Source: Metallumcola ferriviriculae
GTDB lineage: Bacteria > Bacillota > JADQBR01
Assembly (NCBI RefSeq): GCF_035573695.1
Contig: NZ_CP121694.1
Coordinates: 782,501-846,500 of the forward strand
Reading direction: 5' to 3'
Length of the DNA stretch: 64,000 nt
The position numbers and the translations under genes were made by a program. This document shows, piece by piece, positions 4,055-38,773 of this stretch (positions are counted from its first letter, which is position 1; the number at the start of each line of letters is the position of its first letter). The notes under the pieces were generated by a model. It searched no databases. It was not told the DNA's origin and saw only the letters and a list, made by a program, of their open reading frames with translations.

Positions 4055-4438
4055 ATGGCCATTGCAGGCAAAAGCGGAAAACTGGGGCTGGGTGTAAGTA
4101 CCGTAGTGGATGTGAGCAGTTGGTCTCTTGATCTGGGTGTTGATACACTTGATGTGACCGCCCTGGGTGATGATTGGAAAAAGTTTATCGCAGGCTTAAA
4201 GGAGTGGTCAGCCTCGGCAGATGGGTTTTATTCGGTGCATACCGATGCCACCGGACAGAAAGCACTGCAGGATGCCTATTTAAATAGCACCGAGGTATCA
4301 CTCAAGCTGTATGTCAATGCAACTAACTACTATTCAGGAAACGCTTATATTTCAGGACTGTCGGTGGAAGACCCGGTGGACGATACGGTGAGCATTTCCT
4401 TTGAATTTCAGGGAACTGGTCCACTGACCTACAATTAA
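4055..4438 (+). CDS. Major tail (tube) protein
   Basis: 127-aa siphovirus tail-tube protein. Alternating strand segments (SSWSLDLGVDTLDVTALGD, TEVSLKLYVN, VSISFEFQGTG) fit the tail-tube beta-sandwich fold. The polymer forms the DNA channel around the tape measure. It starts 4 bases after the previous stop, with GAGGAGGG as ribosome binding site. The gene after it carries a related C-terminal domain. Confidence 0.85.
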   Translation: MAIAGKSGKLGLGVSTVVDVSSWSLDLGVDTLDVTALGDDWKKFIAGLKEWSASADGFYSVHTDATGQKALQDAYLNSTEVSLKLYVNATNYYSGNAYISGLSVEDPVDDTVSISFEFQGTGPLTYN

Positions 4439-4452
4439 GGTGGTGATGCTAG

Positions 4453-5067
4453 ATGACAATAGCAGGTAAGGTTGGTGCGGTGTTTTTGCAAACAGAAGAT
4501 GTGCATGAGACATTCATTAAAGAAGCAGCCACAGCCAATATTGAATTTACGCACTACACTATCACCGATGAGTTATGTCGGTACTTAGATAGAAACTCTC
4601 CCATAACCGTCTATATAAACGATGTCCAATATAATGGCAATTTTGAAGCCCGGCATTTGGGCGGTGTCATTATCTTTCCCGTACCCCTGCTTGGTACTGA
4701 TACTGTGACAGTCAGTGGAAAGAGCATTCGGGTAGACCAGGCAGGAGGCTTCTTTAGCTGGAGCGCAGATCTTTCATCGGACACTGTTGATGTGAGCACC
4801 TTTGAAAGCGGTGGCTGGAAAGAGAACCTCCCCACCATAAACGGCTTTACTGCTGCTGCAGAGAGCTATTGGGCTGATGAAAGACTGTCCTCAAGGCTCG
4901 GCCAGGAAGTGATCATTGCCTTGTATTTGGACACTGGTACCAATAAAAAACGATATGAGGGCTATGGGAGGATTTCGGGGGACAGCATTAAGCTTTCAGC
5001 TGATGGTGTAGTAAATGAAAGCATTGAATTTGAAGGCAGCGGTAAGCTGTATTATAGGGAGGATTAA
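4453..5067 (+). CDS. Second tail-tube-like protein with extra N-terminal domain
   Basis: 204-aa protein whose C-terminal ~115 residues (from about FSWSADLSSDTVDVSTFE) share the layout of the preceding tail-tube protein, ending SIEFEGSGKLYYRED against its SISFEFQGTGPLTYN. The first ~90 residues are different and beta-rich (VYINDVQYNGNF, TDTVTVSGKSI) and could form an added Ig-like surface domain. It may be a minor tube subunit or a decorated variant. The homology is visible; the function is inferred. Confidence 0.7.
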   Translation: MTIAGKVGAVFLQTEDVHETFIKEAATANIEFTHYTITDELCRYLDRNSPITVYINDVQYNGNFEARHLGGVIIFPVPLLGTDTVTVSGKSIRVDQAGGFFSWSADLSSDTVDVSTFESGGWKENLPTINGFTAAAESYWADERLSSRLGQEVIIALYLDTGTNKKRYEGYGRISGDSIKLSADGVVNESIEFEGSGKLYYRED

Positions 5068-5708: not shown

Positions 5709-7889
5709 ATGGCAGTAATTAGAAGTGTTGTGGTGAAAATCGGAGCGGATATTTCAGAGCTACAAAAAAGCTTGAACAGTGCTGCAAAAAAATTGGATAA
5801 AGCCGGTAAAAGCCTCGCTTCCATTGGTGGCACCTTAACCAAGGGGCTGACTCTTCCCATCGCCGCCGCTACCACAGGAATTTTAAAGCTGGGGATGGAC
5901 TTTGATGATACTTTCGAGAAAATTCGAGTCGGAACCGGAGCCACAGGTGCAGCACTTCAGGACCTTCAGGATGATTTCAAGGCAGTTTATGCTTCCGTTC
6001 CGGCTGGAATGGAGGATGTGAGCACTGCCATTGCCGATCTTAATACGAGAACCGGGCTTGCAGGCAAACCACTGCAGGAGTTATCCACCCAGATGCTGAA
6101 CCTCTCTCGCATTACTGGAGAGGATTTATCAGGTATGATATCAAGTTCATCGCGCCTTTTTGGAGACTGGAGTGTGGCGGCCGGTGATACTGCAGGCACC
6201 ATGGACTATTTGTTTAAGGTTGCCCAAAGCACCGGAATTGGTTTTAATGATCTGAACGCCAAGATGGTGGAGTTTGGAGCGCCACTTCGTCAAATGGGCT
6301 TTGACCTAGAGACCTCAGCTGCTATGCTCGGTAAGTTTGAAAAGGAAGGGGTCAACACCGAGCTAGTGCTTGGCGGACTTCGTATAGCACTGGGCAAGAT
6401 GGCCCAAGAAGGTATTACCGATACCAAGGCGGCTCTTGAAGAGGTTACTAAAAGAATAAAGGAGGCAGGCTCCACCGGTGAAGCCAATGCCATCGCCCTT
6501 GAAATGTTCGGTACTCGCATAGGCCCCGATATGGCTGCTGCCATTAGGGAAGGCAGGTTTGAACTGTCAGATCTAGTGAAAACCTTACAAACGAGCAGTG
6601 AAACTATCAACGGAGCCGCTTTTGAAACCATAGATTTTGCTGAGCAGCTGACCATAATGAAAAACAGGGCTGCTGTTGCATTAGAGCCACTCGGTTCATC
6701 TTTGATGCAGGCGGTCAATTCGGCCATGCCTGCCATCGAGGGCCTTATTGGAAAGCTGACTGGTTTAGTCGATTGGTTTGGAAACCTTGACAACGGCTCG
6801 CAGATACTGATTCTTTCCTTCATCGGTTTTGCCGCAGCAATAGGTCCTCTCCTTTCACTTGTGGGCAATCTCACAAGTGGTGTCGGCGCTGCAGTGAATG
6901 CTGTGAAGTGGCTTGCCGATGCGGAAAATATCGCAGCAATAAAGACAACCGTTTTGTCTGTGGCTCAAAAGGCAGCGGCAGCAGCTCAGTGGCTACTTAA
7001 TGCGGCCATGTCAGCCAATCCCATAGGTCTTGTTGTTATCGCCCTGGCCGCATTGGTGGCAGCAATCGTCTATCTATGGAATACCAATGAAGACTTTAAA
7101 AAGGCGGTTATCGCTATCTGGGATGGAATTGTTGATGGAGTTAATAAGGCTATTGATTTTATGGTCAATCTGTTTAACAACGTGGTTAGTTTCTTTAAAG
7201 ATAATTGGCAGAGCATCTTGCTCTTGATGGTTAATCCCTTTGCCGGAGCATTTAAGTATCTTTATGAGAATTGCGAGCAGTTTCGCACCTTTATCAATAA
7301 TCTATTGGCTGCTATTGGCCGGTGGTTTACCGGGATTTACAACGGCATTAAAAGCACCGCTTCAAGTATCGTCTCAAGCATTCAAACTACATTTAACCGC
7401 GTTAAATCATGGGTGGCTGATTTTATCTCTAACGGTGCCCAGTGGGGAGCAAATCTTATAAAGAATATTGCTGATGGCATCTTATCCGGTATTAAATGGG
7501 TAAGAAATGCTACTGCAAGGGTAGCAGATACCGTGAAAGGATACCTAGGCTTTTCCTCGCCAACTGAAAAAGGGCCGGGCAGTAAAGCTGATAGATGGAT
7601 GCCCAATATGATCTCTATGCTGGAAAGTGGCATCAAAAAGGGTATTCCCGATATAAGGTCTGCTGCCATGGACCTAGCAGGAAGTATTTCGAACTTAGGC
7701 AATACAAATATTTTAAAAGAGGCGGTTCCTGCGGATAGAACTACCAGCCGGACTTCTAGTTTGCAGATAGAGAACTTACTCTCGGTAGAAAGAATGGAAA
7801 TGGCTAATGACCTGGATATATATAAATTGAGCCAAAAGATAGCAGAGCTTTTAAAAGAACAAATGTATTTGACTGGGGTGAGGTTATGA
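5709..7889 (+). CDS. Tail tape measure protein
   Basis: 726-aa protein that sets tail length and fills the tube. The N-terminus contains LQKSLNSAAKKLDKAGKSL helices, then the TP901/phage tape-measure core (AAEDLSG/FNDLNAKMVEFGAPLRQ region near 180-210), and two strongly hydrophobic segments (residues ~360-385 and ~437-457) of the kind thought to insert into the host membrane. There is no obvious peptidase domain. For a tape measure it is short, predicting a tail of roughly 100 nm at most by the usual ~1.5 Angstrom per residue rule (inference). Confidence 0.9.
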   Translation: MAVIRSVVVKIGADISELQKSLNSAAKKLDKAGKSLASIGGTLTKGLTLPIAAATTGILKLGMDFDDTFEKIRVGTGATGAALQDLQDDFKAVYASVPAGMEDVSTAIADLNTRTGLAGKPLQELSTQMLNLSRITGEDLSGMISSSSRLFGDWSVAAGDTAGTMDYLFKVAQSTGIGFNDLNAKMVEFGAPLRQMGFDLETSAAMLGKFEKEGVNTELVLGGLRIALGKMAQEGITDTKAALEEVTKRIKEAGSTGEANAIALEMFGTRIGPDMAAAIREGRFELSDLVKTLQTSSETINGAAFETIDFAEQLTIMKNRAAVALEPLGSSLMQAVNSAMPAIEGLIGKLTGLVDWFGNLDNGSQILILSFIGFAAAIGPLLSLVGNLTSGVGAAVNAVKWLADAENIAAIKTTVLSVAQKAAAAAQWLLNAAMSANPIGLVVIALAALVAAIVYLWNTNEDFKKAVIAIWDGIVDGVNKAIDFMVNLFNNVVSFFKDNWQSILLLMVNPFAGAFKYLYENCEQFRTFINNLLAAIGRWFTGIYNGIKSTASSIVSSIQTTFNRVKSWVADFISNGAQWGANLIKNIADGILSGIKWVRNATARVADTVKGYLGFSSPTEKGPGSKADRWMPNMISMLESGIKKGIPDIRSAAMDLAGSISNLGNTNILKEAVPADRTTSRTSSLQIENLLSVERMEMANDLDIYKLSQKIAELLKEQMYLTGVRL

Positions 7890-9886
7890 GAAGCGCCTTT
7901 GATATACCGAATATTATTAACACTAAAAACGGTTATGTGCTTGATTTGTCCCCGGAGCGTTTGACCTCAGCCTTAGCAGCAGAGGGTTTTAGCCTTAATG
8001 ACTCAACTTTGCACAGTGATTTTGCCGGGCGGGCCGTACTAAGTGACCCTACTTCTGAAATAGCGATGGTGCTAAATGATCAGATATCCAGCGTAGATAT
8101 ACGCCCTTTCTTATCTATGCTGTTAGCTAAGTCGGGAAAAAGAGATGTCAATACGGCCATAGCGGCTAAAACCTGTGACATGGGCTACTATCCTTTGGTA
8201 GCGAACACCTGTAATTCCGAAAATACCAGTTTTGAAACTAAGTTTAAATGTAAAGATGGCTATCCTACCGGTATTGTGGAGTGGCACTATGCCAGGGACT
8301 ATAACGGCAAGGTACGTGCCTTAGATATACTATCCTTTTCGCGAAATAACGTACTGTACATAATTGCCGATGCCCAAAACATCAATGATTTAAAGATTGC
8401 CATGGAATGGGTAGGGTGGGATTCCGGCCAGCCAGATAAACATGATTTGTCTGCAGCGTACGAGATTTATAATGGCCAGGGCGTAATTTGGGTAGAAGAA
8501 CATAATAGCGGCTGGTTTGCGGCTTTAAGCTGCACCAATATGAATGAATATCAGGTGGATTCAGTTCAGTTCACACCTATCTATGCATTGGATGAGACTA
8601 AAACTACTGTTAGCCATTCAAGTTGTTTTGTTGGTATGGGTACGGATGGTCTGGGTGAACGCGGTAGTGTAGTTTTTGCTATCGCCATAGGCAGGAGTAA
8701 GGCTGAGGTAATGGAAAAAGCGGTAGCTGGCCTCTCAAATTGGGAAAGTGAATATACGGACGCAGAGAACATGTGGTGTGAATACTTTTCCGGTTTAGAA
8801 AGGCAGTGGTTTGCCCCGGAAGCAATAAAGGCCAAGGGATATTTTTCTCTCATGCAAATCCTTAATTTGTCGGTGGGCGGCTATTTGTCAGCGGGAATTC
8901 CCAATTGGCCTTATAACTGGGTGCGTGATACTGCCTGGGCGATCCATGCCCTCATCCCAATAAAACCGGCACTAGCTGCCCAGTTTCTCAGCTGGTTTGA
9001 AGGTAAGAACATGTTAACAGTAAACGACTTTGATATAGATGGTACCGGGGAATACAACTATAACAACACCGATAATGCGGCTGTATTCCTGGCGGCAGCC
9101 GGTAAATACTTTAGGCACACTAATGATAAACAATTGCTGTCAGGGTTAAAACCGCAGCTAGATCAGTTGTTTACCTACCTAGAGGACAATTTTATAGAGG
9201 CAGATAGACATATTTTAGCCCGGCATGTTCATGATTATTGGGATGACTATGCTAGTGAGATAACAACATCGTTGGTGAAATATGAAAGCATGGTGGATAT
9301 CTTATGGATTTATGCTCTTGAGAATCTTATCCCGGTATATAGAAGCTTAGGTGATAACAGCAGGGTTACCTTTGGGGTGAACGCACTTAGTCTTCTTAAG
9401 CAGGGGTTAGCTGATTACCGCCGGGAGGACGGGGGCTTTGATTATGCTATTAAACAGGATGGGACGCTGTATGACAGTGTTTTAACGGTGCCAGCTAATA
9501 TTTTCGCAGCCTGGATGCTTAATGACAAGTCATGTTTCAATTGGCTTAAGAGCAGAACTGCAGTTGCAACCCTGGGAGGGCTGGGGTTACAACTTGACCA
9601 TGGGGTAGGCTTTTCCCAAAGCAGCACAGGAACAGCAAAAAAGAAAGATATCTGGTTTCCGCATGTCTGTATTATTGCCATGTTAGCGGCTGAAGAGGGT
9701 GATTTAAAGCCGCTTAAGCTTCTAGCTAATAATTTTCCTTTCGGGTCCTTGCCTGAATATGTGCAGGCAGATTTAAAGAATGGGAATAGGCTTGGCTATT
9801 TAAGCGGAGCCTGGTCCTTTTCCTGGTCATACGCAGCCTATCTTGAAATGATGAACCGCCTGTTTTTAGCAAGCGGGGGTAAATAA
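7886..9886 (+). CDS. Six-hairpin (alpha/alpha toroid) glycosidase-like tail protein
   Basis: 666-aa protein between tape measure and Dit, overlapping the tape measure stop by 4 bases. Residues ~1-290 look beta-rich. Residues ~300-655 are helical, with IPNWPYNWVRDTAWAIHAL near 338-356, FDIDGTGEYNYNN near 382-394 and HDYWDDY near 449-455. This combination recalls GH15-like and other six-hairpin glycosidases, where the W-RD-A segment lines the active site. It could cleave host surface glycans or bind them. No catalytic residue was proven and no signal peptide is seen. It is unusual for this tail position. Confidence 0.6.
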   Translation: MRSAFDIPNIINTKNGYVLDLSPERLTSALAAEGFSLNDSTLHSDFAGRAVLSDPTSEIAMVLNDQISSVDIRPFLSMLLAKSGKRDVNTAIAAKTCDMGYYPLVANTCNSENTSFETKFKCKDGYPTGIVEWHYARDYNGKVRALDILSFSRNNVLYIIADAQNINDLKIAMEWVGWDSGQPDKHDLSAAYEIYNGQGVIWVEEHNSGWFAALSCTNMNEYQVDSVQFTPIYALDETKTTVSHSSCFVGMGTDGLGERGSVVFAIAIGRSKAEVMEKAVAGLSNWESEYTDAENMWCEYFSGLERQWFAPEAIKAKGYFSLMQILNLSVGGYLSAGIPNWPYNWVRDTAWAIHALIPIKPALAAQFLSWFEGKNMLTVNDFDIDGTGEYNYNNTDNAAVFLAAAGKYFRHTNDKQLLSGLKPQLDQLFTYLEDNFIEADRHILARHVHDYWDDYASEITTSLVKYESMVDILWIYALENLIPVYRSLGDNSRVTFGVNALSLLKQGLADYRREDGGFDYAIKQDGTLYDSVLTVPANIFAAWMLNDKSCFNWLKSRTAVATLGGLGLQLDHGVGFSQSSTGTAKKKDIWFPHVCIIAMLAAEEGDLKPLKLLANNFPFGSLPEYVQADLKNGNRLGYLSGAWSFSWSYAAYLEMMNRLFLASGGK

Positions 9887-9887
9887 C

Positions 9888-11840
9888 ATGCGAGAACTAT
9901 TGAATAGTAAACTGATTGTCACTGATAGCGCAGATAGTTTTTACCGTCTTTTCCCTAACCCCCCGTTGGGATTGGTATTACTTAATTATACAGAGGGTGC
10001 CGGGGAAGCAACCAGAGCGGCCACCCTAGTTCCCTCCAGCGCCTGGACGCTTATTTTCTTATGCTCCTATGGTACTAAGGACGCGATAGATAAGGCTAAG
10101 CTAATCGCAGATAATTTGATTGATAATATTATCGAGACTACTGTCAATGGCCAAACCATGTACTTTCAATCCATACATTACTTTAATACTGATAATCAGC
10201 AATGGCAAAGACGAAAAGATGATGGTTATTGCGAGGTATATACAAGGGATTTGTTCTTATCAGCTTACGGTTTAAGCCGCTTATACCTTCGTTGTGGAGA
10301 AGATACTTACAAACAGTGGTCTTTAAAGCTGATTGAGAGCATTTATAAAGTGCAGACTGCTTTTTCTTCCCTTTGCGGCACCGAACTGCCTGCATATTTG
10401 GACGGTGCTTTTCCTGAATTTTATCTCCGCACAGATGCCGGAGTAGAATTCTATCCCGTTAACGGGCGTGTGCCACTGCATCTCGGGGATATTGCCTATG
10501 ACCTGGTGCAAACTGCAATAGCTGCATTTGGAAATAGCCAGCAAACTGCTGAGGGCGGGACTTACTATATCGGGGACATTAATGATAGATTTCATAACTT
10601 TATCCGCACAAATTGCATACAAAGCCAGCGGGGAGTAATGGAAACGGTAGGTCTGCCTTATATGTATATGGCCCCCATAGAAGGCACAAGTGATTATACT
10701 GGCAAGAACCTATCGCCGGTATATAACCAGTGGGGAGATGTTAACTGGACTTCAGATACAGTTCTGTGGTCGGTGCTGGGTTTGGCTAAAAATGAAGGCA
10801 GTGGGGCCGCGATCTTTGTTGCTAGGGCTAAAGCTTTAATGATAAACGGCTTTTTCTATGATGTATATACCTATACAGGAGTAAAGGATAGCGAGTTCCC
10901 CGATCTGGCTACTCAAGCCACTATTTTTTACCTTGAGGCCCTTCGTCTTACAGGAGGGACGTATGACTATAAAACAGAACAAGCGTTGATGAAGGTGCAG
11001 GTAGATAGTCTAGACCCTAATTCCAACGGACTATATTACTGGTCACTTGAAGATAAAACGGTGGAGATGGTAGCGACAGCGCGTATATTCACCGGCTTTT
11101 TTAATCTAGAAGCCTTTGCTAGCGGTATGCCAAGAAAGCTTTATTTTGACGGAGTGGATACCTCAACCTTTGGACTTTCCATCATTGATGTTAAGGGGCG
11201 CTGGGAAATTCCTGAAGGGGAGGAAACAAGCACAAAGCTTCCTGGCATGGATGGTACCTACTATCATCACACCGAATTCAAGGAGCGAACCATTGTAGTA
11301 AAGGGCCTATTAAAGCATGATAGCCGGTCGGCCTTAGTAGCTGCCCAGAAGGAGCTAAATACTTTGCTTAATCCCAAAAAGGGAGAATGTGAGCTTCGCT
11401 TTGATGATGAGTATTTCAATGTTTATAAAGGAAGGCTTCGGGGGAAAACCGTCATGGAAACTGTCGGTTCAATGGAAATACTTAATCTTCAATTCAATTG
11501 TTCGAAACCTTTTATTTATGGTGTACCCCAGTATTACAAAACCTCAGGTAGCGTTTGGCTATTAAACCGGGGTTCACAAAAAACGCCTCTCAGGTTAACC
11601 CTTACTGGTCCGGCAGAATTTCCGGTAATTAGCATCGGTGACAGCCAGATATATATTAATACATCACTTGGCAGCACCGATATATTTATTGTGGATAGCG
11701 AAAAATTAGAAATCACCTTAAACGGTGCCCCGGCAGCACATTTGGCTGAAGGGGATTTTTTATATCTTGAACCGGGCGAAACTGAGATCAGTACCTCCGC
11801 TGGAAACTTAGAGATAGAGTTTTCGGAAATGTGGCTGTAA
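9888..11840 (+). CDS. Distal tail protein (Dit) fused to an N-terminal toroid-like domain
   Basis: 650-aa protein with two parts. Residues ~414-650 are a full-length siphovirus Dit (MPRKLYFDGVDTSTFGLSII start; RGRWEIPEGEE-type loop; LRLTLTGPAEFPVISIG galectin-like part), the hexameric hub at the tail tip. Residues 1-413 are helical with TSDTVLWSVLGLAKN and PDLATQATIFYLEALRLTGG, resembling six-hairpin toroid domains like the preceding gene. The internal ATG at 11127 marks where a normal Dit would begin, so this is a domain fusion in one uninterrupted frame. Confidence 0.75.
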   Translation: MRELLNSKLIVTDSADSFYRLFPNPPLGLVLLNYTEGAGEATRAATLVPSSAWTLIFLCSYGTKDAIDKAKLIADNLIDNIIETTVNGQTMYFQSIHYFNTDNQQWQRRKDDGYCEVYTRDLFLSAYGLSRLYLRCGEDTYKQWSLKLIESIYKVQTAFSSLCGTELPAYLDGAFPEFYLRTDAGVEFYPVNGRVPLHLGDIAYDLVQTAIAAFGNSQQTAEGGTYYIGDINDRFHNFIRTNCIQSQRGVMETVGLPYMYMAPIEGTSDYTGKNLSPVYNQWGDVNWTSDTVLWSVLGLAKNEGSGAAIFVARAKALMINGFFYDVYTYTGVKDSEFPDLATQATIFYLEALRLTGGTYDYKTEQALMKVQVDSLDPNSNGLYYWSLEDKTVEMVATARIFTGFFNLEAFASGMPRKLYFDGVDTSTFGLSIIDVKGRWEIPEGEETSTKLPGMDGTYYHHTEFKERTIVVKGLLKHDSRSALVAAQKELNTLLNPKKGECELRFDDEYFNVYKGRLRGKTVMETVGSMEILNLQFNCSKPFIYGVPQYYKTSGSVWLLNRGSQKTPLRLTLTGPAEFPVISIGDSQIYINTSLGSTDIFIVDSEKLEITLNGAPAAHLAEGDFLYLEPGETEISTSAGNLEIEFSEMWL

Positions 11841-11853
11841 AGGTGGTGATAAG

Positions 11854-14196
11854 ATGCTTGAGATATATGATGCAGCTGGTATCAAGCGATTAGGCTATTT
11901 GGGACAAAAGGAACTAAGTGATTTTTGTCGGGTAAGAAGTAGTAATGGCATGAGCACCCTAAAGTTTAATTGCCTGGTTAATGAAAAGACCCTGCGGCTT
12001 ATCGAAAGCGAAAACAGAATTTACTTTGAGGGTAGTGAGTATATCATAAAAAGCCCTTCAGCCACTTTGACAGATGAGGGGTTTATCAGTGTATCCTGTG
12101 TGTGTTCAGCAGAGGAACTGCTCTATCGCTATATTGACGGCGAGCTAGCCTTTTCTAATGCTAGTATGAGCTATGCAGTAGCCAGGGTACTTGAGAATAC
12201 GGGCTGGACTTTAAAGTATTGCGACCCCACTATCACCACTCTCCGTGATGTCCGTTTGGAAAATCTTAATCGTCTGGAAGCTTTAAACGAGCTACTTAAA
12301 CTATACGGGGCAGTGGAGGAATATTGTTACGGGCCTTTCGTGCAATTTGATACTCTGGAAAAAACAGTGAGCCTATATAACGATATTGGCCAGGATAACG
12401 GGGTGACTATTCGTTCAGGAAGAAATTTAGCCAGCTTGGATTTAAGCTACGACTCGAAGGGGCTGGTAACCAGGCTATATGTGAAAGGAAAGGATGGCGT
12501 AGATATCGCTAGTGTCAATGGTGGCTATAGCTATATTGAAAACTTCTCCTTTTTCACAGCCCTCGGCTACAACACGGCTGACAGCATCATAAGGGAGCGT
12601 TTGGTGCGAGAAGATGTGGTTACCTATGACAAGATCGCTGACCCTAGTGAATTGTTGGAGCAGGGGCGAAGAAAGCTCGCGGTCGTCGCTTGGCCCAAGC
12701 TTAGTGTGAGTGTGAAGCTGGCTGACCTTTACCGCTTGTATGCTGAGGCCCTTTATAAAATAGAGGTGGGGGATTGGGTAACGGTAGAATATACCGGGCC
12801 GCAAGATATCTCTGTACGCTTAAGGGTACGAGTAATTGAAATGGTTGAATACCCCTATGAACCGCAGAGAAACAGCATTAACGTGGGAACTCCGAAACCG
12901 CAGATAAGTGATGCTGTGAAACCGGCTGTGACTACTGCGAGAATAATTACCCGGAACCGCCATGCCAATAGCCTGTTACAAGGCTTTATCAATACCGCCA
13001 CCACCTTAATCAATGGTACAAATGGGCTGCTAACTATTACTGACAACACAATAGACTTTTGGGGCATTGATGCTGAAGGCAGGCGAAATGGCAAGGGGGT
13101 ACGCCTATCGCCAGGGGGACTTGGTATCACTGAAGACGGTGGGCAAAGCTACAAAACAGCAGTAACCGGAGAAGGTGTGCTATCAAGTACCGTAGTGATT
13201 AACGAACTTTATGCATTATCTACCGCTGATGAATATACCAAAATCATGTCTGATGGTTTACATGTATATGATGAGAATAATATTGAACGCCTCCATGCCG
13301 GTCATTGGCAGGTGGACGCTACAGAGCGTTTTGGTTTAAGGATTACAGCATCAGATGGGACGACAGTTATTTTAGATGATCGTGGTATGCTGCAAACTTG
13401 GCAGTTGCATGTAGTAGATAATGTAGATGCCACTCATCCCCTTAAGATAATTTTCTATGTTCCACCTGGAGCCAATCTATTAAATGGTAAGCAGTTTAAA
13501 CTCAGCTTTACCAAGGAATGGTTTAGAGCCTATGAAACCGGAGCAGCATCAGGAGGTGGTGTTTATGCATCCACTGAAGATGGTGGTTATACCTTTACAT
13601 CCACTGAGTCAGGTGGCGGCGACATAGATACCAGCGAGCCTGGATTGTGGATTCTCTCTCCCTCACAGTATCTATTACCCGATTTTATGGATATGGCGGG
13701 CTATCATTTTCACGATAATACCATGGAGAAAGATGGTACGCATAACCATGGAATTGAGCATGGCACTACCCTTATCACCGATACGGGTAGTGTTTCATGG
13801 GTACAAAGTGGCTATCATGACCATATTCTTCACAATACTTATGCCGGAGATCACGCTCACGCTATGCTATCAGTTTCCCATACCCACGCTGTTTCTTTGC
13901 CGTTTCATGCTCACAACATGTATTTACCGAATCATCGCCATATGGTTTCTTTAGGGGACCATACTCACAATTTGGTTTTTGGTATATATGAGGGAACTGC
14001 CCCGGCTGACATATCAATTACTCTGGACGGAACTGATATTACTGCGCAACTTGGGGGGCCATTTAACGAAAACAAGAATGAACTCCAATTATCCCCCCAT
14101 ATAACGTCGCCAGGCTGGCATAATTTAGAGCTAGGCAGCAGTATTTTAGGTAGGATAAATGCCAGTTTGTTTATTCAACTATTTATGTATATGTGA
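11854..14196 (+). CDS. Tail-associated lysin/baseplate protein (Tal-like) with histidine-rich tip
   Basis: 780-aa protein after Dit. The first ~360 residues match the N-terminal ring domain of prophage tail endopeptidase/gp27-like proteins (MLEIYDAAGIKRLGYLG start, GDWVTVEYTGPQDI near 307). A middle beta-rich stalk follows. Residues ~618-705 hold eight HxH motifs (HFH, HNH, HDH, HAH, HTH, HAH, HRH, HTH), the pattern by which some phage fibre tips bind metal ions along a trimer axis. The last ~75 residues form a distinct end domain, likely for receptor contact. No peptidase motif was recognised. Confidence 0.8.
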   Translation: MLEIYDAAGIKRLGYLGQKELSDFCRVRSSNGMSTLKFNCLVNEKTLRLIESENRIYFEGSEYIIKSPSATLTDEGFISVSCVCSAEELLYRYIDGELAFSNASMSYAVARVLENTGWTLKYCDPTITTLRDVRLENLNRLEALNELLKLYGAVEEYCYGPFVQFDTLEKTVSLYNDIGQDNGVTIRSGRNLASLDLSYDSKGLVTRLYVKGKDGVDIASVNGGYSYIENFSFFTALGYNTADSIIRERLVREDVVTYDKIADPSELLEQGRRKLAVVAWPKLSVSVKLADLYRLYAEALYKIEVGDWVTVEYTGPQDISVRLRVRVIEMVEYPYEPQRNSINVGTPKPQISDAVKPAVTTARIITRNRHANSLLQGFINTATTLINGTNGLLTITDNTIDFWGIDAEGRRNGKGVRLSPGGLGITEDGGQSYKTAVTGEGVLSSTVVINELYALSTADEYTKIMSDGLHVYDENNIERLHAGHWQVDATERFGLRITASDGTTVILDDRGMLQTWQLHVVDNVDATHPLKIIFYVPPGANLLNGKQFKLSFTKEWFRAYETGAASGGGVYASTEDGGYTFTSTESGGGDIDTSEPGLWILSPSQYLLPDFMDMAGYHFHDNTMEKDGTHNHGIEHGTTLITDTGSVSWVQSGYHDHILHNTYAGDHAHAMLSVSHTHAVSLPFHAHNMYLPNHRHMVSLGDHTHNLVFGIYEGTAPADISITLDGTDITAQLGGPFNENKNELQLSPHITSPGWHNLELGSSILGRINASLFIQLFMYM

Positions 14197-16254: not shown

Positions 16255-17682
16255 ATGGCGCGAACCATCCGAAAAATCGAGCCAATAAAGGCAACAATAC
16301 CAGTTAAGAAGCGCGTTGCCGCCTATGCCAGAGTATCCAGTGGCAAAGATGCAATGCTTCACTCTATATCAGCTCAAATCAGTTATTACAGCGACTATAT
16401 TCAAAAGCAACGCGGATGGGAGTATGCCGGTGTTTATGCAGATGAAGCAATGACCGGCACCAAAGATAACAGAGCAGAGTTCCAGAGGCTCTTGAGCGAC
16501 TGCAGAAACGGTAAAATAGACTTAGTTCTAACCAAGTCCATTTCCAGGTTCGCAAGGAATACGGTTACTATGTTAGAAACGGTACGAGAGTTAAAGAGCA
16601 TCAATGTTGATGTCTATTTTGAAAAAGAAAATATCCACTCAATGAGCGGGGATGGTGAGTTAATGCTTACCATCCTCGCTTCTTTTGCGCAAGAAGAGAG
16701 CCGTTCGGTCAGTGAAAACTGCAAGTGGCGTATTCGAAAAGCTTTTGCTGACGGAGAGCTTGTAAACTTAAGGTTTTTGTATGGGTATCGCATTGAAAAT
16801 GGTGAAATTGAAATTGACGCCAAACAGGCAGAAATAGTTCGCATGATTTTTGCAGATTATATCGGCGGTATGGGCTGCACCTTGATTGCAAAAAAGTTGT
16901 CTGGTATGGGTGTTGCACGACCTCGAGGGGGTACTTGGAACTCGGAGAGAGTTGCGGAGATCATCAAAAATGAAAAATACGCAGGGAATGCGTTGCTTCA
17001 GAAAAAGTATGTTAAAGACCATTTGACAAAGACATTGGTGCGCAACAAAGGTATGCTTCCAAAATATTATGCTGAAAACACCCATCCACCAATAATTGAT
17101 GAGATTACTTTCCAAAAAGCTCAGGGGATTATGGCTAAAAACAGAGATAGTAATGCTGGAAAAAATGACCCCAAGCAATACCCTTTCACCAGTAAAATTG
17201 TCTGCAGCAAATGCGGGAAAAATTATAACCGAAAAGCTGCATGCGGGCGGGCTTCATGGAAATGCTCTACCTACCTGCGATATGGCAAGGATAGCTGCCA
17301 TACCAAGCAAATCCCCGAGGACATCCTGCTTTCGATAGCTGTAGAGGTATTAGGACTTAAAGAGTTTGATGAAACGGTATTTGAGCAAAAGATAAAGGAA
17401 ATACAGGCTATTGATTCTAACCTGCTGGTATTTGTTTTCCGTGACGGCCGCACTGTCCAAAAGGAATGGCAGAACAAATCACGCAGTGAAAGCTGGAGTG
17501 AAGAAGCCCGTCAGCAGGCCCGGGAACGCCAGCTAAAATACTGGAAAGGAGGAAAGCTACATGTGTTCAGCAAGAGCAGTAAAAGTTATTCCGGCAACAG
17601 CAGAACGCTTTGCACCGATAACTGCCGGAACTCCAGCCACAAGACGGGTTGCCGCCTACGCAAGGGTTTCAACGGACAATGA
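16255..17682 (+). CDS. Large serine recombinase 1
   Basis: 475-aa large serine recombinase. The resolvase domain (residues ~18-155) begins with RVAAYARVSS, whose Ser is the expected nucleophile, and includes SISRFARNTVTMLE. The recombinase domain (~185-280) and a C-x2-C zinc ribbon (CSKCGKNYNRKAACGRASWKC near 318) follow. The homologous copy at 27.3 kb ends right at the next gene, but here the frame runs on, giving a 122-base overlap with recombinase 2; the last ~40 residues are probably not conserved. AGGGAGGTGA is the ribosome binding site. Confidence 0.88.
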   Translation: MARTIRKIEPIKATIPVKKRVAAYARVSSGKDAMLHSISAQISYYSDYIQKQRGWEYAGVYADEAMTGTKDNRAEFQRLLSDCRNGKIDLVLTKSISRFARNTVTMLETVRELKSINVDVYFEKENIHSMSGDGELMLTILASFAQEESRSVSENCKWRIRKAFADGELVNLRFLYGYRIENGEIEIDAKQAEIVRMIFADYIGGMGCTLIAKKLSGMGVARPRGGTWNSERVAEIIKNEKYAGNALLQKKYVKDHLTKTLVRNKGMLPKYYAENTHPPIIDEITFQKAQGIMAKNRDSNAGKNDPKQYPFTSKIVCSKCGKNYNRKAACGRASWKCSTYLRYGKDSCHTKQIPEDILLSIAVEVLGLKEFDETVFEQKIKEIQAIDSNLLVFVFRDGRTVQKEWQNKSRSESWSEEARQQARERQLKYWKGGKLHVFSKSSKSYSGNSRTLCTDNCRNSSHKTGCRLRKGFNGQ

Positions 17683-19150
17683 CGAACAGCTTTCAAGCTA
17701 CGAGGCGCAGGTAGATTATTACACGAGGCACATCAAATCAAATCCGGCTTGGGAATTCGTAGAAGTCTATGCCGATGAAGGTATATCAGCTACAAGCACA
17801 AAAAAGCGTGAAGGTTTCAACAGGATGATAGCCGACGCTCTGATCGGTAAAATCGACCTTATTATTACAAAATCAGTATCCCGATTTGCCAGAAATACTG
17901 TTGATACTCTTAGCACCGTCCGACAGCTTAAAGAAAAAGGCGTGGAAGTCTACTTCGAGAAGGAAAACATCCACACCATGGACAGCAAGGGTGAACTGCT
18001 TATAACCATCATGTCCAGCTTGGCCCAGGAAGAGAGTCGGAGTATTTCAGAGAACGTTACCTGGGGTCAAAGAAAGCGGTTTGCTGATGGAAAGATTAGC
18101 CTACCCTACGGAAGATTCCTTGGTTACGAAAAGGGTGATGATGGGCTTCCTAAGATTGTTGAATCGGAAGCCAAAACAGTGCGGTTGATTTATAAATTGT
18201 TCCTTGAAGGTAAGACTCCTTCGGGTATAGCAAGGCATCTTACGAAAAGTTCCATACTGACGCCATCGGGCAAACAGAAATGGCAAACCAGTACCGTAAC
18301 GAGCATCCTTCAGAATGAAAAATATAAAGGTGACGCGATGCTTCAGAAGACTTTCACCGTTGATTTTCTTACCAAGAAAAAGAAGGTCAATGAAGGTGAG
18401 ATTCCACAGTATTACGTGGAAAACAGTCATCCTGCAATCATAACGCCGGAAGTTTTCGATCTTGTCCAGCATGAGCTTAAGAAACGGAAAAATGCCAAGG
18501 GATATAAGACGGGTGGTGGTTGTTTTTCAGGAAAAATTATCTGTGGTGAGTGTGGGGGCTTCTTCGGCAGTAAGGTGTGGCATTCTACCAGCAAATACCG
18601 CAGGACCATTTGGCAATGCAATCATAAGTTTAAAAACAATAATAAGTGCCAGACACCGCACCTTTATGAAGATAAAATCAAAGAGGCATTTTTAGATACT
18701 TTTAACAGCCTACTTGAGAATAAAGGGGAAATCCTGCAAAACTATGAAGCCATTATTAATGACCTAACCGATACGTCAGAGTTTGAAAAAGAAAGCGCCA
18801 AGTTCCAAAGTGAAAGTGAGGTTGCGGCAGAACTGCTCCGAAAGTGTGTGGAGGAAAACGCCCATTCTGCTCTTGACCAGGGGGAATACCAGCAGCATTA
18901 TACAAGCTTGGTGGAACGTTATGAAGCCGCCAAAAAAGGACTTGATGAGATTGATAATAAGCGGCTGGAACGAAATGCCAAACGTGAAAGTATAGGGGCT
19001 TTTATTCGGATGTTGGAGAAGAGTGACACGCTCTTGACTGAATTTGATGAGGAACTTTGGAATGCAACAGTGGATGCGGTGACGGTTCATCCTGAGCATG
19101 AGATTGTTTTTACTTTTAAGGACGGAATGGAACTGAATTCAAAGATATAG
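17561..19150 (+). CDS. Large serine recombinase 2
   Basis: 529-aa large serine recombinase with catalytic segment RVAAYARVSTDNDEQLSSYEAQ at ~30-52, SVSRFARNTVDTLSTVRQL, recombinase domain to ~300, zinc ribbon CGECGGFFGSK...CNHKF near 327-355 and a C-terminal coiled coil. It starts with ATG inside the end of recombinase 1, preceded by GGAAAGGAGG. It is closely related to the gene at 27680-29272. Recombinases 1 and 2 together are candidates for the prophage or island integrase. Confidence 0.92.
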   Translation: MCSARAVKVIPATAERFAPITAGTPATRRVAAYARVSTDNDEQLSSYEAQVDYYTRHIKSNPAWEFVEVYADEGISATSTKKREGFNRMIADALIGKIDLIITKSVSRFARNTVDTLSTVRQLKEKGVEVYFEKENIHTMDSKGELLITIMSSLAQEESRSISENVTWGQRKRFADGKISLPYGRFLGYEKGDDGLPKIVESEAKTVRLIYKLFLEGKTPSGIARHLTKSSILTPSGKQKWQTSTVTSILQNEKYKGDAMLQKTFTVDFLTKKKKVNEGEIPQYYVENSHPAIITPEVFDLVQHELKKRKNAKGYKTGGGCFSGKIICGECGGFFGSKVWHSTSKYRRTIWQCNHKFKNNNKCQTPHLYEDKIKEAFLDTFNSLLENKGEILQNYEAIINDLTDTSEFEKESAKFQSESEVAAELLRKCVEENAHSALDQGEYQQHYTSLVERYEAAKKGLDEIDNKRLERNAKRESIGAFIRMLEKSDTLLTEFDEELWNATVDAVTVHPEHEIVFTFKDGMELNSKI

Positions 19151-27331: not shown

Positions 27332-27701
27332 CGGTAAAAACTACAAACGCAAGACCACACACGGACGGATTTCGTGGAACTGCTCTACTTACCTGAAATT
27401 CGGCAAGGCATTCTGCCACACCAAGCAAATCCCCGAAGACATCCTGCTTTCGATAGTTACAGAGGTTTTAGGGCTTACGAAGTTTGATGAGACGGTCTTT
27501 GAGCAAAAGATTAAGGAAATACAGGCTATTGATTCTAACCTTCTGGTATTTGTTTTTCGTGACGGCCAGACTGTCCAAAAGGAGTGGCAGAACAAATCAC
27601 GTAGTGAAAGCTGGAATGAGAAAGCCCGACAACAGGCGCGGGAGAGACAACTAAAATATTTGGAAAGGAGGAAAGCTTCATGTATCCAGCAAGAGCAGTA
27701 A
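27332..27701 (+). pseudogene. Serine recombinase C-terminal fragment (paralogue of recombinase 1)
   Basis: It begins in the zinc ribbon (VCGKNYKRK) and continues NCSTYLKFGK...CHTKQIPEDILLS, closely matching recombinase 1 from residue ~318 on. The resolvase and recombinase domains are gone. The istB relic is in the same reading frame, so an artificial 169-aa open frame (27192-27701) exists. Its stop codon overlaps the start of the next recombinase by 22 bases, which is the native spacing. Confidence 0.8.
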
Positions 27702-29272
27702 AAGTTATTCCGGCAACAGCAGGACTTTTTGCACCCATAGCTGCCGGAACTCCAGCAACAAAACGGGTTGCTGCCTACGCAAGGGTTTCAACGGACAATG
27801 ATGAACAGCTCTCAAGCTACGAGGCGCAGGTGGATTATTACACTAGACACATCAAATCAAATCCAGCTTGGATGTTCATTGAGGTCTACGCTGATGAGGG
27901 TATTTCAGCTACAAGCACAAAAAAGCGTGATGGTTTCAACAAGATGATAGCTGACGCACTGGCCGGTGAAATCGACCTGATTATTACCAAGTCGGTGTCC
28001 AGATTTGCCAGGAACACTGTTGATACGCTGACTACTGTCCGACAGCTTAAGGAAAAAGGCGTGGAGGTTTATTTTGAAAAGGAGAACATCTACACATTAG
28101 ACAGTAAGGGTGAGCTATTGATCTCAATTATGTCAAGCTTGGCTCAAGAAGAATCAAGGTCAATAAGCGCTAATGTCACCTGGGGTCAGCGCAAACGGTT
28201 TGCCGACGGTAAAGTCAGCCTGCCATACGGACAGTTCCTTGGTTACGAAAAAGGTGAAGATGGCTTGCCGAAAATTGTCGAAAAAGAAGCTGAGTTTGTC
28301 CGGTTGATTTACAAACTCTTTCTTGAAGGTAAGACGCCTTCGGGTATAGCAAAGCATCTTACAGAGAAAGGTATCAAGACTCCTGCTGGTAAACAGAAAT
28401 GGCAACCCAGTACCGTAACGAGTATCCTTCAGAATGAAAAATATAAAGGCGATGCTGTGCTGCAGAAATCATTTACAGTGGATTTCCTTACCAAGAAAAA
28501 GAAAATTAATGAGGGTGAGATTCCCCAGTACTATGTGGAAAACAGTCATCCGGCAATCATAAGCCCCGAGACATATGAACTGGTTCAAGAAGAGTTCAGG
28601 CGGCGTAAAGCGGCAGGAAGATATACAAGCGCCATTAACTGCTTTGCCAGCCGGATTGTTTGTGGGGACTGTGGCGGATTTTACGGCAGAAAGATATGGC
28701 ACTCCACCACCAAGTACGCCAACACCGTTTGGCAGTGCAATAATAAGTTCAGAAAGAGAACCTATTGTAACACCCCTCACCTGAAAGAAGAAGTCCTGAA
28801 ACGAGCCTTTGTCGAGGCCTTCAACAGCCTTATTGAAAATAAAGATGAGATTTTATCCACCTATAATGAAATAATTGTAACGATTACAGACTTCAAAAAG
28901 CAGGAGAAGGAGAGCCAAAAAATCAATGAAGAATGCACAGTCATTGAAGCGGCAGTGGAAAAGCTGATTGCTGAAAACGCAAGGTCAGCAATAGACCAGA
29001 AGGAATACACCAAGAGGTACACCCCCCTTGCTACCAGATATAACGAGCTGCAAAACAGGAAGCAGGAGCTTAATAGCGAAATCGCAATCTTAAAAGCCAG
29101 GCGCAATCAGATGAACGCCTTCATCCGCCAACTTAAAGAGCAAAAAGAACTACTGACCGAGTTTAACGAGAGCCTTTGGTGTGCGACTGTTAACGCAGTG
29201 GTTGTAAAATCCAATGAAGAGATAACTTTTCAGTTTAAAGACGGAACTGAATTGCCATGGGGGATTGAATAA
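27680..29272 (+). CDS. Large serine recombinase 3
   Basis: 530-aa large serine recombinase, clearly paralogous to recombinase 2 along its whole length (RVAAYARVSTDNDEQLSSYE; SVSRFARNTVDTLTTVRQLK; WGQRKRFADGKVSLPYGQFL). The zinc ribbon is CGDCGGFYGRK...CNNKF near 329-357, followed by a coiled coil. The start ATG follows GGAAAGGAGG. It forms a tandem set with the next two recombinases. Confidence 0.92.
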   Translation: MYPARAVKVIPATAGLFAPIAAGTPATKRVAAYARVSTDNDEQLSSYEAQVDYYTRHIKSNPAWMFIEVYADEGISATSTKKRDGFNKMIADALAGEIDLIITKSVSRFARNTVDTLTTVRQLKEKGVEVYFEKENIYTLDSKGELLISIMSSLAQEESRSISANVTWGQRKRFADGKVSLPYGQFLGYEKGEDGLPKIVEKEAEFVRLIYKLFLEGKTPSGIAKHLTEKGIKTPAGKQKWQPSTVTSILQNEKYKGDAVLQKSFTVDFLTKKKKINEGEIPQYYVENSHPAIISPETYELVQEEFRRRKAAGRYTSAINCFASRIVCGDCGGFYGRKIWHSTTKYANTVWQCNNKFRKRTYCNTPHLKEEVLKRAFVEAFNSLIENKDEILSTYNEIIVTITDFKKQEKESQKINEECTVIEAAVEKLIAENARSAIDQKEYTKRYTPLATRYNELQNRKQELNSEIAILKARRNQMNAFIRQLKEQKELLTEFNESLWCATVNAVVVKSNEEITFQFKDGTELPWGIE

Positions 29273-29274
29273 CC

Positions 29275-30477
29275 ATGGTGAAAAGAAAGATAACTGAAAT
29301 AAAAGGAAGCCTCAATCCCTTCACCGTACCTCCAAAAATCAGAGTTTGTGCCTATGTACGTGTATCAACTGAACACTCCGGGCAGATGAATTCCCTCCAA
29401 AACCAGACCGAATACTATGAACGAAAGCTAAAGTCAAATCCTGCGTATGAATTCTGCGGCATTTTCTCAGACACGGGTATATCCGGCTTAAAAATAGACC
29501 GGCCGGGCCTAAAGGCTATGCTTGAAAAAGCAAGAGCAGGTGAAATAGATATTATCATTACAAAGTCGGTTTCCCGATTTGCAAGGAATACTCTAATGCT
29601 GCTTAAATATGTCCGCGAATTAAAAGATGCAGGTGTGGGTGTCATCTTCGAAGAGCAGAACATCAACACCATAAATGCTGAGGGAGAATTAATGCTCACT
29701 GTCCTTGCAGCCATCGCGGAAGAAGAACGAAAGTCGGTCTGTGCCAATGTTCAATGGGCCATGCAGAACAAATTCAAGCGCGGAGAGGCGATGGTAGACG
29801 TTAATCGCCTCATGGGTTACGACCGGGACGAAAATGGCAGTCTGGTCATAAATAAAAAGCAGGCAGAAATCGTCAAGCGGATTTATAATCTCTATCTAAA
29901 TGTTATTTCCGGGTATAAGATTGCGCAGATACTAAATGACGAAGGTGTCCCTACCTATACTAAGAATCCATGGCGTTCGCACCGGATTTTAAGTATCATC
30001 TCCAACGAGAAATATACCGGCGACTGTTTGATGCAAAAAGCCTTCGTTAATGAGGAGGGTAAGCAAGTTTTAAATAAAGGGCAAAAGCCCAAGTACTACG
30101 TTGAAAATGCCCATCCGGCAATTATTCCAAGAACAAAGTGGAAGGCGGCCCAAACCATCCGTGAAGGCAGAAAAAAGAAAGAATATCCCTTTACCGGCTT
30201 ATTAAAGTGTCCGTACTGTGGAGCATCGCTCATCAGAGTCATCCATCAAGGCGGCTATGTAAGCTGGATTTGTGCAACCTATCAGCAAAAAGGTAAGGCC
30301 GTATGTATAGGGATGCGCATAGCAGATGGAATATTAGAAGCGCTTTCGAAGGATTATGCAATAACTGAGCCTATGGTTCTGGAGGAGGTGAATCATGACC
30401 TCCGTAGAAAGAAGAGGTCCGAGAAGGATTTCCGTCTTATACCCGTTACCCAGTACAACGGATGGCGAGAAGAATGA
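29275..30477 (+). CDS. Large serine recombinase 4 (short)
   Basis: 400-aa serine recombinase. The catalytic segment is RVCAYVRVSTEHSGQMNS at ~24-41. IIITKSVSRFARNTL, the recombinase domain and CPYCGASLIRV...WICATYQQKGKAVC zinc ribbon (~310-345) follow, but the usual long coiled coil is missing. It begins 2 bases after the previous stop (probable coupling) and overlaps the next gene by 83 bases. Confidence 0.88.
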   Translation: MVKRKITEIKGSLNPFTVPPKIRVCAYVRVSTEHSGQMNSLQNQTEYYERKLKSNPAYEFCGIFSDTGISGLKIDRPGLKAMLEKARAGEIDIIITKSVSRFARNTLMLLKYVRELKDAGVGVIFEEQNINTINAEGELMLTVLAAIAEEERKSVCANVQWAMQNKFKRGEAMVDVNRLMGYDRDENGSLVINKKQAEIVKRIYNLYLNVISGYKIAQILNDEGVPTYTKNPWRSHRILSIISNEKYTGDCLMQKAFVNEEGKQVLNKGQKPKYYVENAHPAIIPRTKWKAAQTIREGRKKKEYPFTGLLKCPYCGASLIRVIHQGGYVSWICATYQQKGKAVCIGMRIADGILEALSKDYAITEPMVLEEVNHDLRRKKRSEKDFRLIPVTQYNGWREE

Positions 30478-31825
30478 AACGAATAAACAGAGAGTTGCGG
30501 CTTACTGCCGGGTCTCAACAGGCAGTGACGAGCAACTTTCAAGCTATCATGCACAAATAACCTATTACGAAAATTATATAAGATCACATCCTGATTACTC
30601 TTTTGCCGGAATTTACGCTGATGAAGGCATCTCCGGAACTGACCTTAAAAAGCGCGATGCTTTTAACCGTCTGATGCAGGACGCCAGAGATGGCCATATA
30701 GATATGATCATTACTAAGAGCCTCTCCCGCTTCGGTCGCAATACTCTTGATTGTCTTAACTGTATTAGGGAATTGAAAGCCCTCGGGGTGGATGTCTATT
30801 TTGAAAAGGAGAATATCCACACCATGAGAAGCGAAGGAGAGATGCTTTTGACGCTGATCTCAGCAGTAGCGCAAACCGAAAGCCTTGCTATTTCAGAAAA
30901 CGTTAAATGGGGCATCCGCAGAAAGTATGAGAGAGGTAATATCAAAAGCATTCCAAGCGGTAAATTCCTGGGTTATGACAAGGACGAAGACGGTAATCTC
31001 ATCATTAATGAAGAACAAGCCAAAGTAGTGCGCCGGATCTACCAGGAGTTCCTTGACGGGTTCGGTACCTTCCAGATTGCCAAGCGCCTGACCACAGAGA
31101 AAGTACTGATGGCTTATGGCGGGAAGGAGTGGTGTGCAAGCCATATCACAAAAGTTCTTACTAATGAAAAGATGAAGGGCGATACAAGGTTTCAAAAGAC
31201 TTATAACGCAGATTATTTAACAAAGCGGCGTGTGAAGAATGAAGGGGAATTGCCACAATATTATTTTGAGAACACCCATCCCGCAATTATCGATAAAGAC
31301 ACATGGAAATGCGCGCAGCTTGAAATGAAGCGGCAGGAACAGTTTGCTAAAGACCACTACATGAATAAGTTTCACCGGCATAGTGAGGAGTATCCCCTCA
31401 GCGGGAAAATCATCTGCAAAGAATGCGGACATACATTTTTGCTTCGAAAATCAAAGCGAAAAGAGGATTATGGAAAGAAGTACTGGATTTGCAGTAACTT
31501 CAAGGCTGGACGCTATAAACCGGTTGGGGAGGATACCTCCCGGAATGGTCAAAGGATTTATGCAGAGATTGCAGAAAAGGAATTCATCAAAGCATGGAAC
31601 CAACTGGTTGATGATAAAGAGAGCTTTTTGCCAAAGCGGCAGCAAACCATAAACGGCGACGATACTTTGGCTGCATATAGGGCTAAGGAACTGGTGTGCA
31701 TGATAGAAGAAGTCGGGTGCATTGAAACGATGCCATATGAATTGATGCTTAAGACACTTGACCATATTGAAATCGGGCTTAATGGCAAACCGGTGGTTGT
31801 TTTTCTTGCCGGAACAAGAATTTGA
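30395..31825 (+). CDS. Large serine recombinase 5
   Basis: 476-aa serine recombinase. QRVAAYCRVSTGSDEQLSSY near 32-51 is the catalytic segment, SLSRFGRNTLDCLNCIREL follows, and the zinc ribbon CKECGHTFLLRKSKR...CSNF is near 350-375. It starts with ATG inside recombinase 4, preceded by GGAGGAGG. It is the last gene of the trio and is followed by a terminator. Three tandem recombinases with overlaps suggest that they act as a set. Confidence 0.9.
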   Translation: MTSVERRGPRRISVLYPLPSTTDGEKNETNKQRVAAYCRVSTGSDEQLSSYHAQITYYENYIRSHPDYSFAGIYADEGISGTDLKKRDAFNRLMQDARDGHIDMIITKSLSRFGRNTLDCLNCIRELKALGVDVYFEKENIHTMRSEGEMLLTLISAVAQTESLAISENVKWGIRRKYERGNIKSIPSGKFLGYDKDEDGNLIINEEQAKVVRRIYQEFLDGFGTFQIAKRLTTEKVLMAYGGKEWCASHITKVLTNEKMKGDTRFQKTYNADYLTKRRVKNEGELPQYYFENTHPAIIDKDTWKCAQLEMKRQEQFAKDHYMNKFHRHSEEYPLSGKIICKECGHTFLLRKSKRKEDYGKKYWICSNFKAGRYKPVGEDTSRNGQRIYAEIAEKEFIKAWNQLVDDKESFLPKRQQTINGDDTLAAYRAKELVCMIEEVGCIETMPYELMLKTLDHIEIGLNGKPVVVFLAGTRI

Positions 31826-37397: not shown

Positions 37398-38354
37398 GAT
37401 GAAAGCCGGTCCATTTCAGAAAATTCCACATGGGGCATCAGAAGACGCTTTGAACAGGGCAGGCTTCATATAAACCATACAAAGTTTTTAGGATACGATA
37501 AAGATGAAAACGGTAACCTTGTCATTAATAAAAAACAGGCCAAGATTGTTAGGAGAATTTATAAGGATTACCTCGATGGAAAGGGGCCAAACCGGATAGC
37601 TAGAGAGCTTGAAGATGAGGGAGTCCTTAACTGGAACGGAAAAGCTAAATGGTATGAAAGCAGCATTAGGAAGATGCTTAGTAATGAAAAATATAAGGGG
37701 GATGCCCTGCTTCAAAAGACCTATACGGTAGATTTTCTGACAAAGAAAAGAACGGAGAACAACGGCCAAGTACCAAAGTACTATGTAGAAGAAAGCCACC
37801 CAGCCATTATCGATAAGGATATGTGGGAAGCAGTGCAGCTTGAGATGCAAAGAAGAAAAGCCTTTGCAGAGAAACATGGTATTAAAAAGATAGACTACGC
37901 CACCATAGATAATCCCTTTGCAGGCAGGGTAATCTGCGGCCATTGCGGGAGCCCCTTTGGGAGAAAGGTGTGGAACTCTACCAATGATAGCCTGAGAAGG
38001 ATAGTCTGGCGGTGCAATAATAAGTACGCTACTAAAGGAGAAAAAGGCTGCGAGAACAAGCATGTGGATGATGGGGTTTTATACCAGGCATTTATAAATA
38101 CCTTTAATGCCATGCTGGAGAATAAAGATTACTTCATGGAGAAATGGTGGCAGAAGCAAGACAGCGGGGATTTACTTGAGAGATACAAGGCGCAGCAGTT
38201 TATGAGGATTATTAAAGAAGCTAAACCTAAGCAAGAGTTTGATATGGATTTATACTTTAAACTGGTTGAGAAGCTGACGGTGATTGAAGGAGATAAAATA
38301 ATTATAACCCTGCTTGATGGGACGGAAGTTGAATGTGAATTTTTACCCAGGTGA
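37395..38354 (+). pseudogene. Serine recombinase, 5'-truncated
   Basis: The frame opens at the repeat edge with QDESRSISENSTWGIRRRF, which is mid-resolvase domain in related proteins, so the catalytic N-terminus (~150 residues) is missing. The recombinase domain, zinc ribbon (CGHCGSPFGRKVW...CNNKY) and C-terminus ending TVIEGDKIIITLLDGTEVEC are intact. No ribosome binding site is visible. The truncation coincides exactly with the 147-bp repeat. Confidence 0.85.
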
Positions 38355-38773
38355 ATGCGACAACCCTCCAATCGTGCAAGTCTAATAATCGGTTAGCTGC
38401 CTTCGGTTGGTTTTAAATACCAATATTTTTAAAAAAAAGGAAGTATTGCAGGGGAATTAGGACGGGCGAAAAAAGAGATAGAGAGGTAATGGGAAAATAT
38501 GCCTAATAAGGATGGTGAAATATGTACTCACACGGGCTTTATAAAATAAATGGTTTCTTTTCCTATTATCATTTTACTTGTTTGAAAAGGATGGTACATA
38601 TCATTTTCGGGTGAGGTGCAATGGCGGTGTCTCCTTGTATATTGAAAGATTAGGCAGCAGTTTTGTCTTTTAGTTGAAGCTAGTTATGGTCAAAAAACTT
38701 TTGTATTGACAATTTTTGAGTCGTTTCTAGTGAAAAGGGTTTGGCTTATTATTCATTTGGAAGGTGGTCTAAC
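38355..38773. other. Intergenic region before surface-protein gene
   Basis: 419 bases without a supported gene. A TTGACA at about 38707 could be the -35 of the downstream gene, although no good -10 is seen. GGTTAGC...GGTTTT weak hairpins occur near 38390. No repeat shared with other loci was noticed. Confidence 0.4.

Follow-up and report, generated by a model that had tools for sequence, protein, structure and literature searches.

A candidate GH15/GH133-related glycosidase encoded between the tape measure and Dit genes of a prophage in Metallumcola ferriviriculae

Most of the sugar-degrading enzymes so far described on phage tails are either beta-helix tailspikes or small hydrolase domains carried by Tal. 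Glycosidase-bearing Tal proteins include that of Listeria phage PSA, and the evolved Dits of lactococcal, streptococcal and Lactobacillus phages carry small carbohydrate-binding modules inserted in their loops (PMC7291167). Here we analysed a 64,000-nt stretch (hereafter the window) of the 3.72-Mb single-contig genome of M. ferriviriculae, at the left end of which lie the head and tail genes of a siphophage-type prophage. The subject of this study is P0001, the 666-aa product of the open reading frame (ORF) at 7886-9886 on the forward strand, located between the genes for the tape measure protein and a Dit fusion. A preliminary description, made from the sequence, had proposed that this protein was a toroid glycosidase of the phage tail tip, and the frame was found as described, beginning with ATG. 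The comparisons below supported the assignment of P0001 to the six-hairpin clan, as a divergent relative within its GH15/GH133 part.

Relationship of P0001 to GH15 and GH133 glycosidases

P0001 alone behaved as an orphan in single-sequence library searches, in which even the best Pfam match stayed below its cut-off. This match was GDE_C (amylo-alpha-1,6-glucosidase), with an E-value of 0.023 when all of P0001 was searched and 0.0086 when only its C-terminal part was, and a bit score of 14.1-15.5, under the curated cut-off of 21 bits. No match to the curated GH15 model PF00723 was obtained by hmmscan, and the GH133-type debranching enzyme of PDB 7vma matched residues 392-430 at an E-value of 0.92. 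As the library searches barely detected P0001, GH15 and GH133 profiles were made from proteins of the same phylum and compared with P0001 by hhalign, using 20 shuffled sequences, the reversed P0001 and about 28 other ORFs of the window as controls. The GH15 profile aligned with residues 256-654 at a score of 57.7 (P=90%, E-value 1.7e-6), and an enlarged GH15 set gave 53.7. The scores with the bacterial GDE-like (GH133-like) profile and the canonical GH133 set were 51.2 and 35.3, respectively. The best control scores were 25.6 for GH15, 30.3 for GDE-like and 23.3 for canonical GH133, so that the GH15-like resemblance noted in the preliminary description went beyond chance. GH133 members were also matched by phmmer at 1.1e-5 in a small sequence set.

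Membership in the other toroid families was rejected by the same comparison, as hhalign gave only 28.8 (over 90 columns) for GH94, 23.5 for GH65 and 19.1 for a GH63-like profile; the relationship is therefore to the GH15/GH133 group. Among the families that had been named for comparison, GH15 was thus retained and GH133 joined it, while GH94, GH65 and GH63 were not borne out by profile, although GH94 came first in the Foldseek search described below. Residues 256-309 aligned with the last part of the GH15 supersandwich and with the linker, and no match was detectable for residues 1-255. On these alignments P0001 cannot be filed in either family, because both curated models failed and the acid residue of GH15 differs.

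In GH15 and GH133, the Glu of the PEQ/SEI segment is the general base, and the WEE/WMD segment contains the general acid. P0001 was aligned with 33 GH15 proteins and, separately, with GH133. Nine residues of P0001 (Y343, W345, R347, D348, D396, W452, W590, E624 and S648) were identical in all 33 GH15 proteins. In the GH133 alignment, W452-D-D fell on the W-M-D (TWMD) segment with D454 in the column of the acid Asp, and E624 fell on the S-E-I segment. The two alignments independently placed E624 on the base segment and W452-D453-D454 on the acid segment. The three motifs that had drawn attention to the protein were all present (W345-V-R347-D348-T-A-W, D385-G-T-G-E-Y-N-Y-N-N and H449-D450-Y-W452-D453-D454-Y), and acidic residues occupied both catalytic positions, the general acid being Asp instead of Glu. 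The features of P0001 are as follows.

7886..9886, +: P0001, 666-aa GH15/GH133-like tail-module protein (profiles, motifs, Foldseek of the model)
7886..8812, +: residues 1-309, presumed beta-supersandwich and linker (hhalign from residue 256; low-confidence model strands)
8813..9865, +: residues 310-660, predicted alpha/alpha toroid (hhalign with GH15/GH133, core helices of the model, Foldseek)
8918..8929, +: W345-V-R347-D348, putative substrate-binding RD motif (GH15 alignment)
9239..9247, +: W452-D453-D454, putative general-acid segment (WEE in GH15, W-M-D in GH133)
9749..9760, +: L622-P-E624-Y, putative general-base segment (LPEQ in GH15, SEI in GH133; E624 invariant)

A structure model was calculated by AlphaFold on an alignment of GH15 proteins headed by P0001. 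The core toroid helices (about 395-430 and 470-510) reached predicted local distance difference test (pLDDT) values of 84-91, and the N-terminal part was poorly modelled. When this GH15-guided model of modest confidence was searched against the PDB by Foldseek, the top matches were only alpha/alpha-toroid glycosidases, namely GH94 (1.7e-8), a GH15 dextran dextrinase (2.5e-8), GH116 and GH52, in line with the toroid fold first suggested. In a viral library, the clear named matches were giant-virus glucan enzymes and none was a phage-tail protein; a further match, A0A1P8VV88, was nameless.

Tail operon and the N-terminal domain of the Dit fusion

The module encodes a head maturation protease, an HK97-type major head protein, a tail terminator, two major tail proteins, the tape measure protein, P0001, the Dit fusion, Tal, a holin and an amidase endolysin. 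The ATG of the P0001 gene overlaps the tape measure stop codon (ATGA, 7886-7889), an arrangement of translational coupling, and the gene ends at 9886, one base short of the start of the Dit-fusion gene at 9888. Its base composition resembled that of the neighbours, with a GC content at third codon positions (GC3) of 0.445 as compared with 0.41-0.45 in the adjoining genes. No signal peptide was apparent by eye at the N-terminus, which counts against a secreted housekeeping enzyme. Among the ORFs of the window, no separate receptor-binding or fibre gene was found between Tal (ending at 14196) and the holin (14418). The neighbouring features are listed below.

5709..7889, +: tape measure protein, 726 aa (phrog_991/1272/58, E-values down to 2e-66; Pfam PhageMin_Tail)
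7875..7889, +: G-rich Shine-Dalgarno-like stretch (7875-7883) and ATGA start/stop overlap (sequence)
9888..11123, +: 412-aa N-terminal domain of the Dit fusion, predicted Thermus phage homologue (tblastn, hhalign)
11139..11840, +: Dit proper, residues ~418-650 (Pfam Sipho_tail 1.6e-13 and SPP1_Dit 2.1e-10; phrog_33 1.5e-32; PDB 2x8k, hypothetical protein 19.1, 9.9e-6)
11854..14196, +: Tal/prophage endopeptidase tail protein (Pfam Prophage_tail 1.3e-33)

The position of the P0001 gene between tape measure and Dit was as first described, but the downstream gene (9888-11840, 650 aa) encodes more than a Dit: only residues ~414-650 belong to Dit, and the first 412 residues form an extra domain that had been missed. 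A tblastn search of all phages with this domain found gp100 of Thermus phage P74-26 and gp101 of P23-45 (E-values 0.01-0.03, 79% coverage). In both phages the corresponding gene belongs to the tail region, on the 3' side of the giant tape measure gene. Further relatives were gp80 of phiLo and a protein of TSP4; in TSP4, too, the gene belongs to the tail region and lies downstream of that for the tape measure protein. A profile made of these Thermus phage proteins aligned with the domain at hhalign scores of 65.6-67.0 (P=95-96%; E-value 2e-8 at 67.0), while shuffled sequences scored at most 22.5 (with a four-sequence profile) and other ORFs of the window at most 20.3. Both sides have in common W...D...R, [ED]-G, L-P-Y and [FW]-G-D-x-x-W-x-x-D-x-x-L-W. 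Judged by these comparisons, the N-terminal domain of the Dit fusion is homologous to P74-26 gp100 and P23-45 gp101, which is a new link. The Thermus family corresponds to phrog_36175, of unknown function and with no Pfam match, and a profile combining it with the Dit domain found no additional relative in 399 genomes of the phylum.

The Thermus proteins begin with a segment that is matched by the last one (357-412) of the domain in the window. When this last segment was moved to the front, the score rose from 67.0 to 74.8 (from 65.6 to 81.4 with a smaller profile), and none of 200 control segments reached 74.8, the best being 71.1. This suggests, without proving it, that the two are circularly permuted with respect to each other; such a permutation is natural for a closed toroid. 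A toroid fold of the Dit domain itself is no more than a guess, made from its helical pattern as judged by eye and from the permutation. A relationship of the domain to GH15/GH133 was rejected at the level of sequence, with profile scores of only 11-18, and GH94 and GH65 profiles gave no match either. AlphaFold run on the domain without an alignment gave a pLDDT of 32.5.

Two observations concern other tail genes. The C-terminal part of Tal (13705-13966) contains eight H-x-H motifs, a pattern known from T4 gp37 and other phage tail fibres that bind metal, and phrog_4311 matches the same end. The adjoining genes at 4055-4438 and 4453-5067 both match phrog_1407, a family of major tail proteins; it is unusual for a single siphophage to have two tube-like proteins.

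Distribution and other features of the window

No direct homologue of P0001 was found in 50,697 phage records, 72,556 plasmids, GTDB genome contigs or the 399 phylum genomes. The sole copy elsewhere was on the 60.6-kb IMG/VR contig IMGVR_UViG_3300032096_000019, which is 100% identical over at least 17.9 kb of the prophage, indicating that the element was also recorded in IMG/VR. A GH15 pattern search of viral contigs gave no hit, and no PHROGs family was recognised by the GH15/GH133 proteins tried. The GH133-like hits in the phage set were set aside as short unannotated fecal scaffolds, possibly bacterial. In the literature, no such phage tail enzyme was found; the coverage was partial, so that an unlisted description may exist. 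The "GH15" of an Eggerthella phage paper proved to be the name of a phage and not the glycosidase family.

The window also contains clusters of large serine recombinase genes, two by the prophage end (16255-19150) and three at 27680-31825, and a recombinase fragment at 37674-38354; the DNA around 17561 and that around 27680 are about 79-86% identical. An IS3-type transposase gene is present in two copies (41794-42681 and 62043-62930) with the same translated protein. The ORF at 38741-41407 encodes an 888-aa protein in which RCC1-type-like repeats are followed by S-layer homology segments, as judged by eye.

Proposed function and comparison with known systems

We propose that P0001 is an active inverting glycosidase of the GH15/GH133 clan, assembled with the tail tip and acting on a host surface glycan, a reading that we consider probable, although with considerable reservation. 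The protein would begin with a part resembling a beta-supersandwich, continue with linker helices and end in an alpha/alpha toroid, and would be made together with the tail proteins and assemble at the tail tip beside Dit. E624 would serve as the general base and D453 or D454 as the general acid, a pair that plausibly fits an inverting mechanism with Asp as the acid. The substrate would be a host-surface glycan that is probably alpha-linked and gluco-configured, and by trimming or holding it P0001 would let the tail tip get to the membrane. As no separate receptor-binding gene follows Tal, the extra domain at the N-terminus of the Dit fusion may add to this adhesion device a second module that faces glycan, directed to the same or another glycan. 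With no fibre gene before the holin, host recognition would fall to this domain, the toroid protein or the C-terminus of Tal, unless it is encoded elsewhere.

Several points weigh against this proposal. The choice of substrate is a guess. The AlphaFold model was modest overall (mean pLDDT 51.5; predicted template modelling score, pTM, 0.53), and it represents consistency and not an independent proof of the fold, because a GH15 alignment guided it. The identical IMG/VR contig adds no independent variation, so that selection on the active site is not measurable. The general-acid Glu of WEE, present in all 33 GH15 proteins, is Asp453 in P0001 and the next Glu is Asp454, N397 stands where GH15 has Glu beside D396, and Y625 where GH15 has Gln. 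P0001 could accordingly be a binding-only relic, that is, a catalytically dead toroid forming a structural or lectin-like part of the tail tip and holding the glycan uncut in the old active-site cleft; the well-known glycan-binding modules attached to Dits in siphophages (PMC7291167) offer a precedent. We regard this as rather unlikely, since the base E624, the RD motif, D396 and W452 are all retained, the acid site is still acidic, and GH133 aligns Asp there.

A gene in a tail operon can also be a cargo gene, in which case P0001 would be a host-type glucan enzyme for metabolism or lysogenic conversion, working in the cytoplasm and not in the virion. GH15/GH133 enzymes are mostly cellular, the host itself has two GH15 genes, and the homologues in other viruses are the giant-virus glucan enzymes. 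This explanation nevertheless appears improbable in view of the ATGA coupling within the tape measure-Dit-Tal row, which leaves no room for a separate promoter, the neighbour-like GC3, and the distance of P0001 from the host's GH15 enzymes, as it has no second match in the genome. Finally, a mere general helical-toroid resemblance without glycosidase ancestry might account for single-sequence scores under the curated cut-offs and for a model guided by GH15. It is hardly credible, however, given a long colinear profile alignment far over the shuffled and natural controls and the agreement of two related families, when neither the GH94, GH65 and GH63-like profiles nor the neighbouring domain gave such a score.

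The proposed active glycosidase would belong to a kind already known, tail-borne glycan-active proteins, of which it would be a variant. If the proposal is true, a glucoamylase/debranching-type toroid in the core tape measure-Dit-Tal row would be a different solution from the beta-helix tailspikes and the small hydrolase domains of Tal, and would suggest that the host bears a surface polymer resembling alpha-glucan. A wider view, that the active toroid enzyme and the circularly permuted gp100/gp101 relative on Dit are two toroid modules in series, constituting a new siphophage adhesion device and founding an unrecognised tail-borne toroid class common to Bacillota-type and Thermus phages, is possible but doubtful. 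The longest-tailed phages known have in gp100/gp101 an unexplained tail-region protein, and the link to the Dit fusion domain offers a way to approach it by sequence.

Compared with GH15 (glucoamylase, glucodextranase and isomaltose glucohydrolase; PDB 1lf6, 1ug9 and 5z3d), P0001 keeps the RD motif, D396, W452, E624 (LPE) and the C-terminal W-S segment, but differs in its ~20% identity, the acid Asp for Glu, the lack of an apparent signal peptide and the location in a phage tail operon. GH133 (amylo-alpha-1,6-glucosidase, GDE_C; PDB 7vma) provides the best Pfam hit and aligns at the W-x-Asp acid and E-I base segments, although P0001 lies below the Pfam cut-off and the canonical-set profile scores lower than GH15. 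In the Thermus phages, gp100, gp101 and phiLo gp80 are stand-alone proteins, whereas their relative here is an N-terminal domain of Dit in which the last helical segment seems to have a permuted position. The evolved Dits show a comparable logic with other folds, having extra glycan-facing modules on or near the Dit of Gram-positive siphophages (PMC7291167), while the present locus has a 412-aa N-terminal domain on Dit and a separate gene for the predicted toroid enzyme. Beta-helix tailspike depolymerases and glycosidase-bearing Tal proteins would share tail-borne glycan degradation with P0001, from which they differ in fold and in position, P0001 being encoded between the tape measure protein and Dit.

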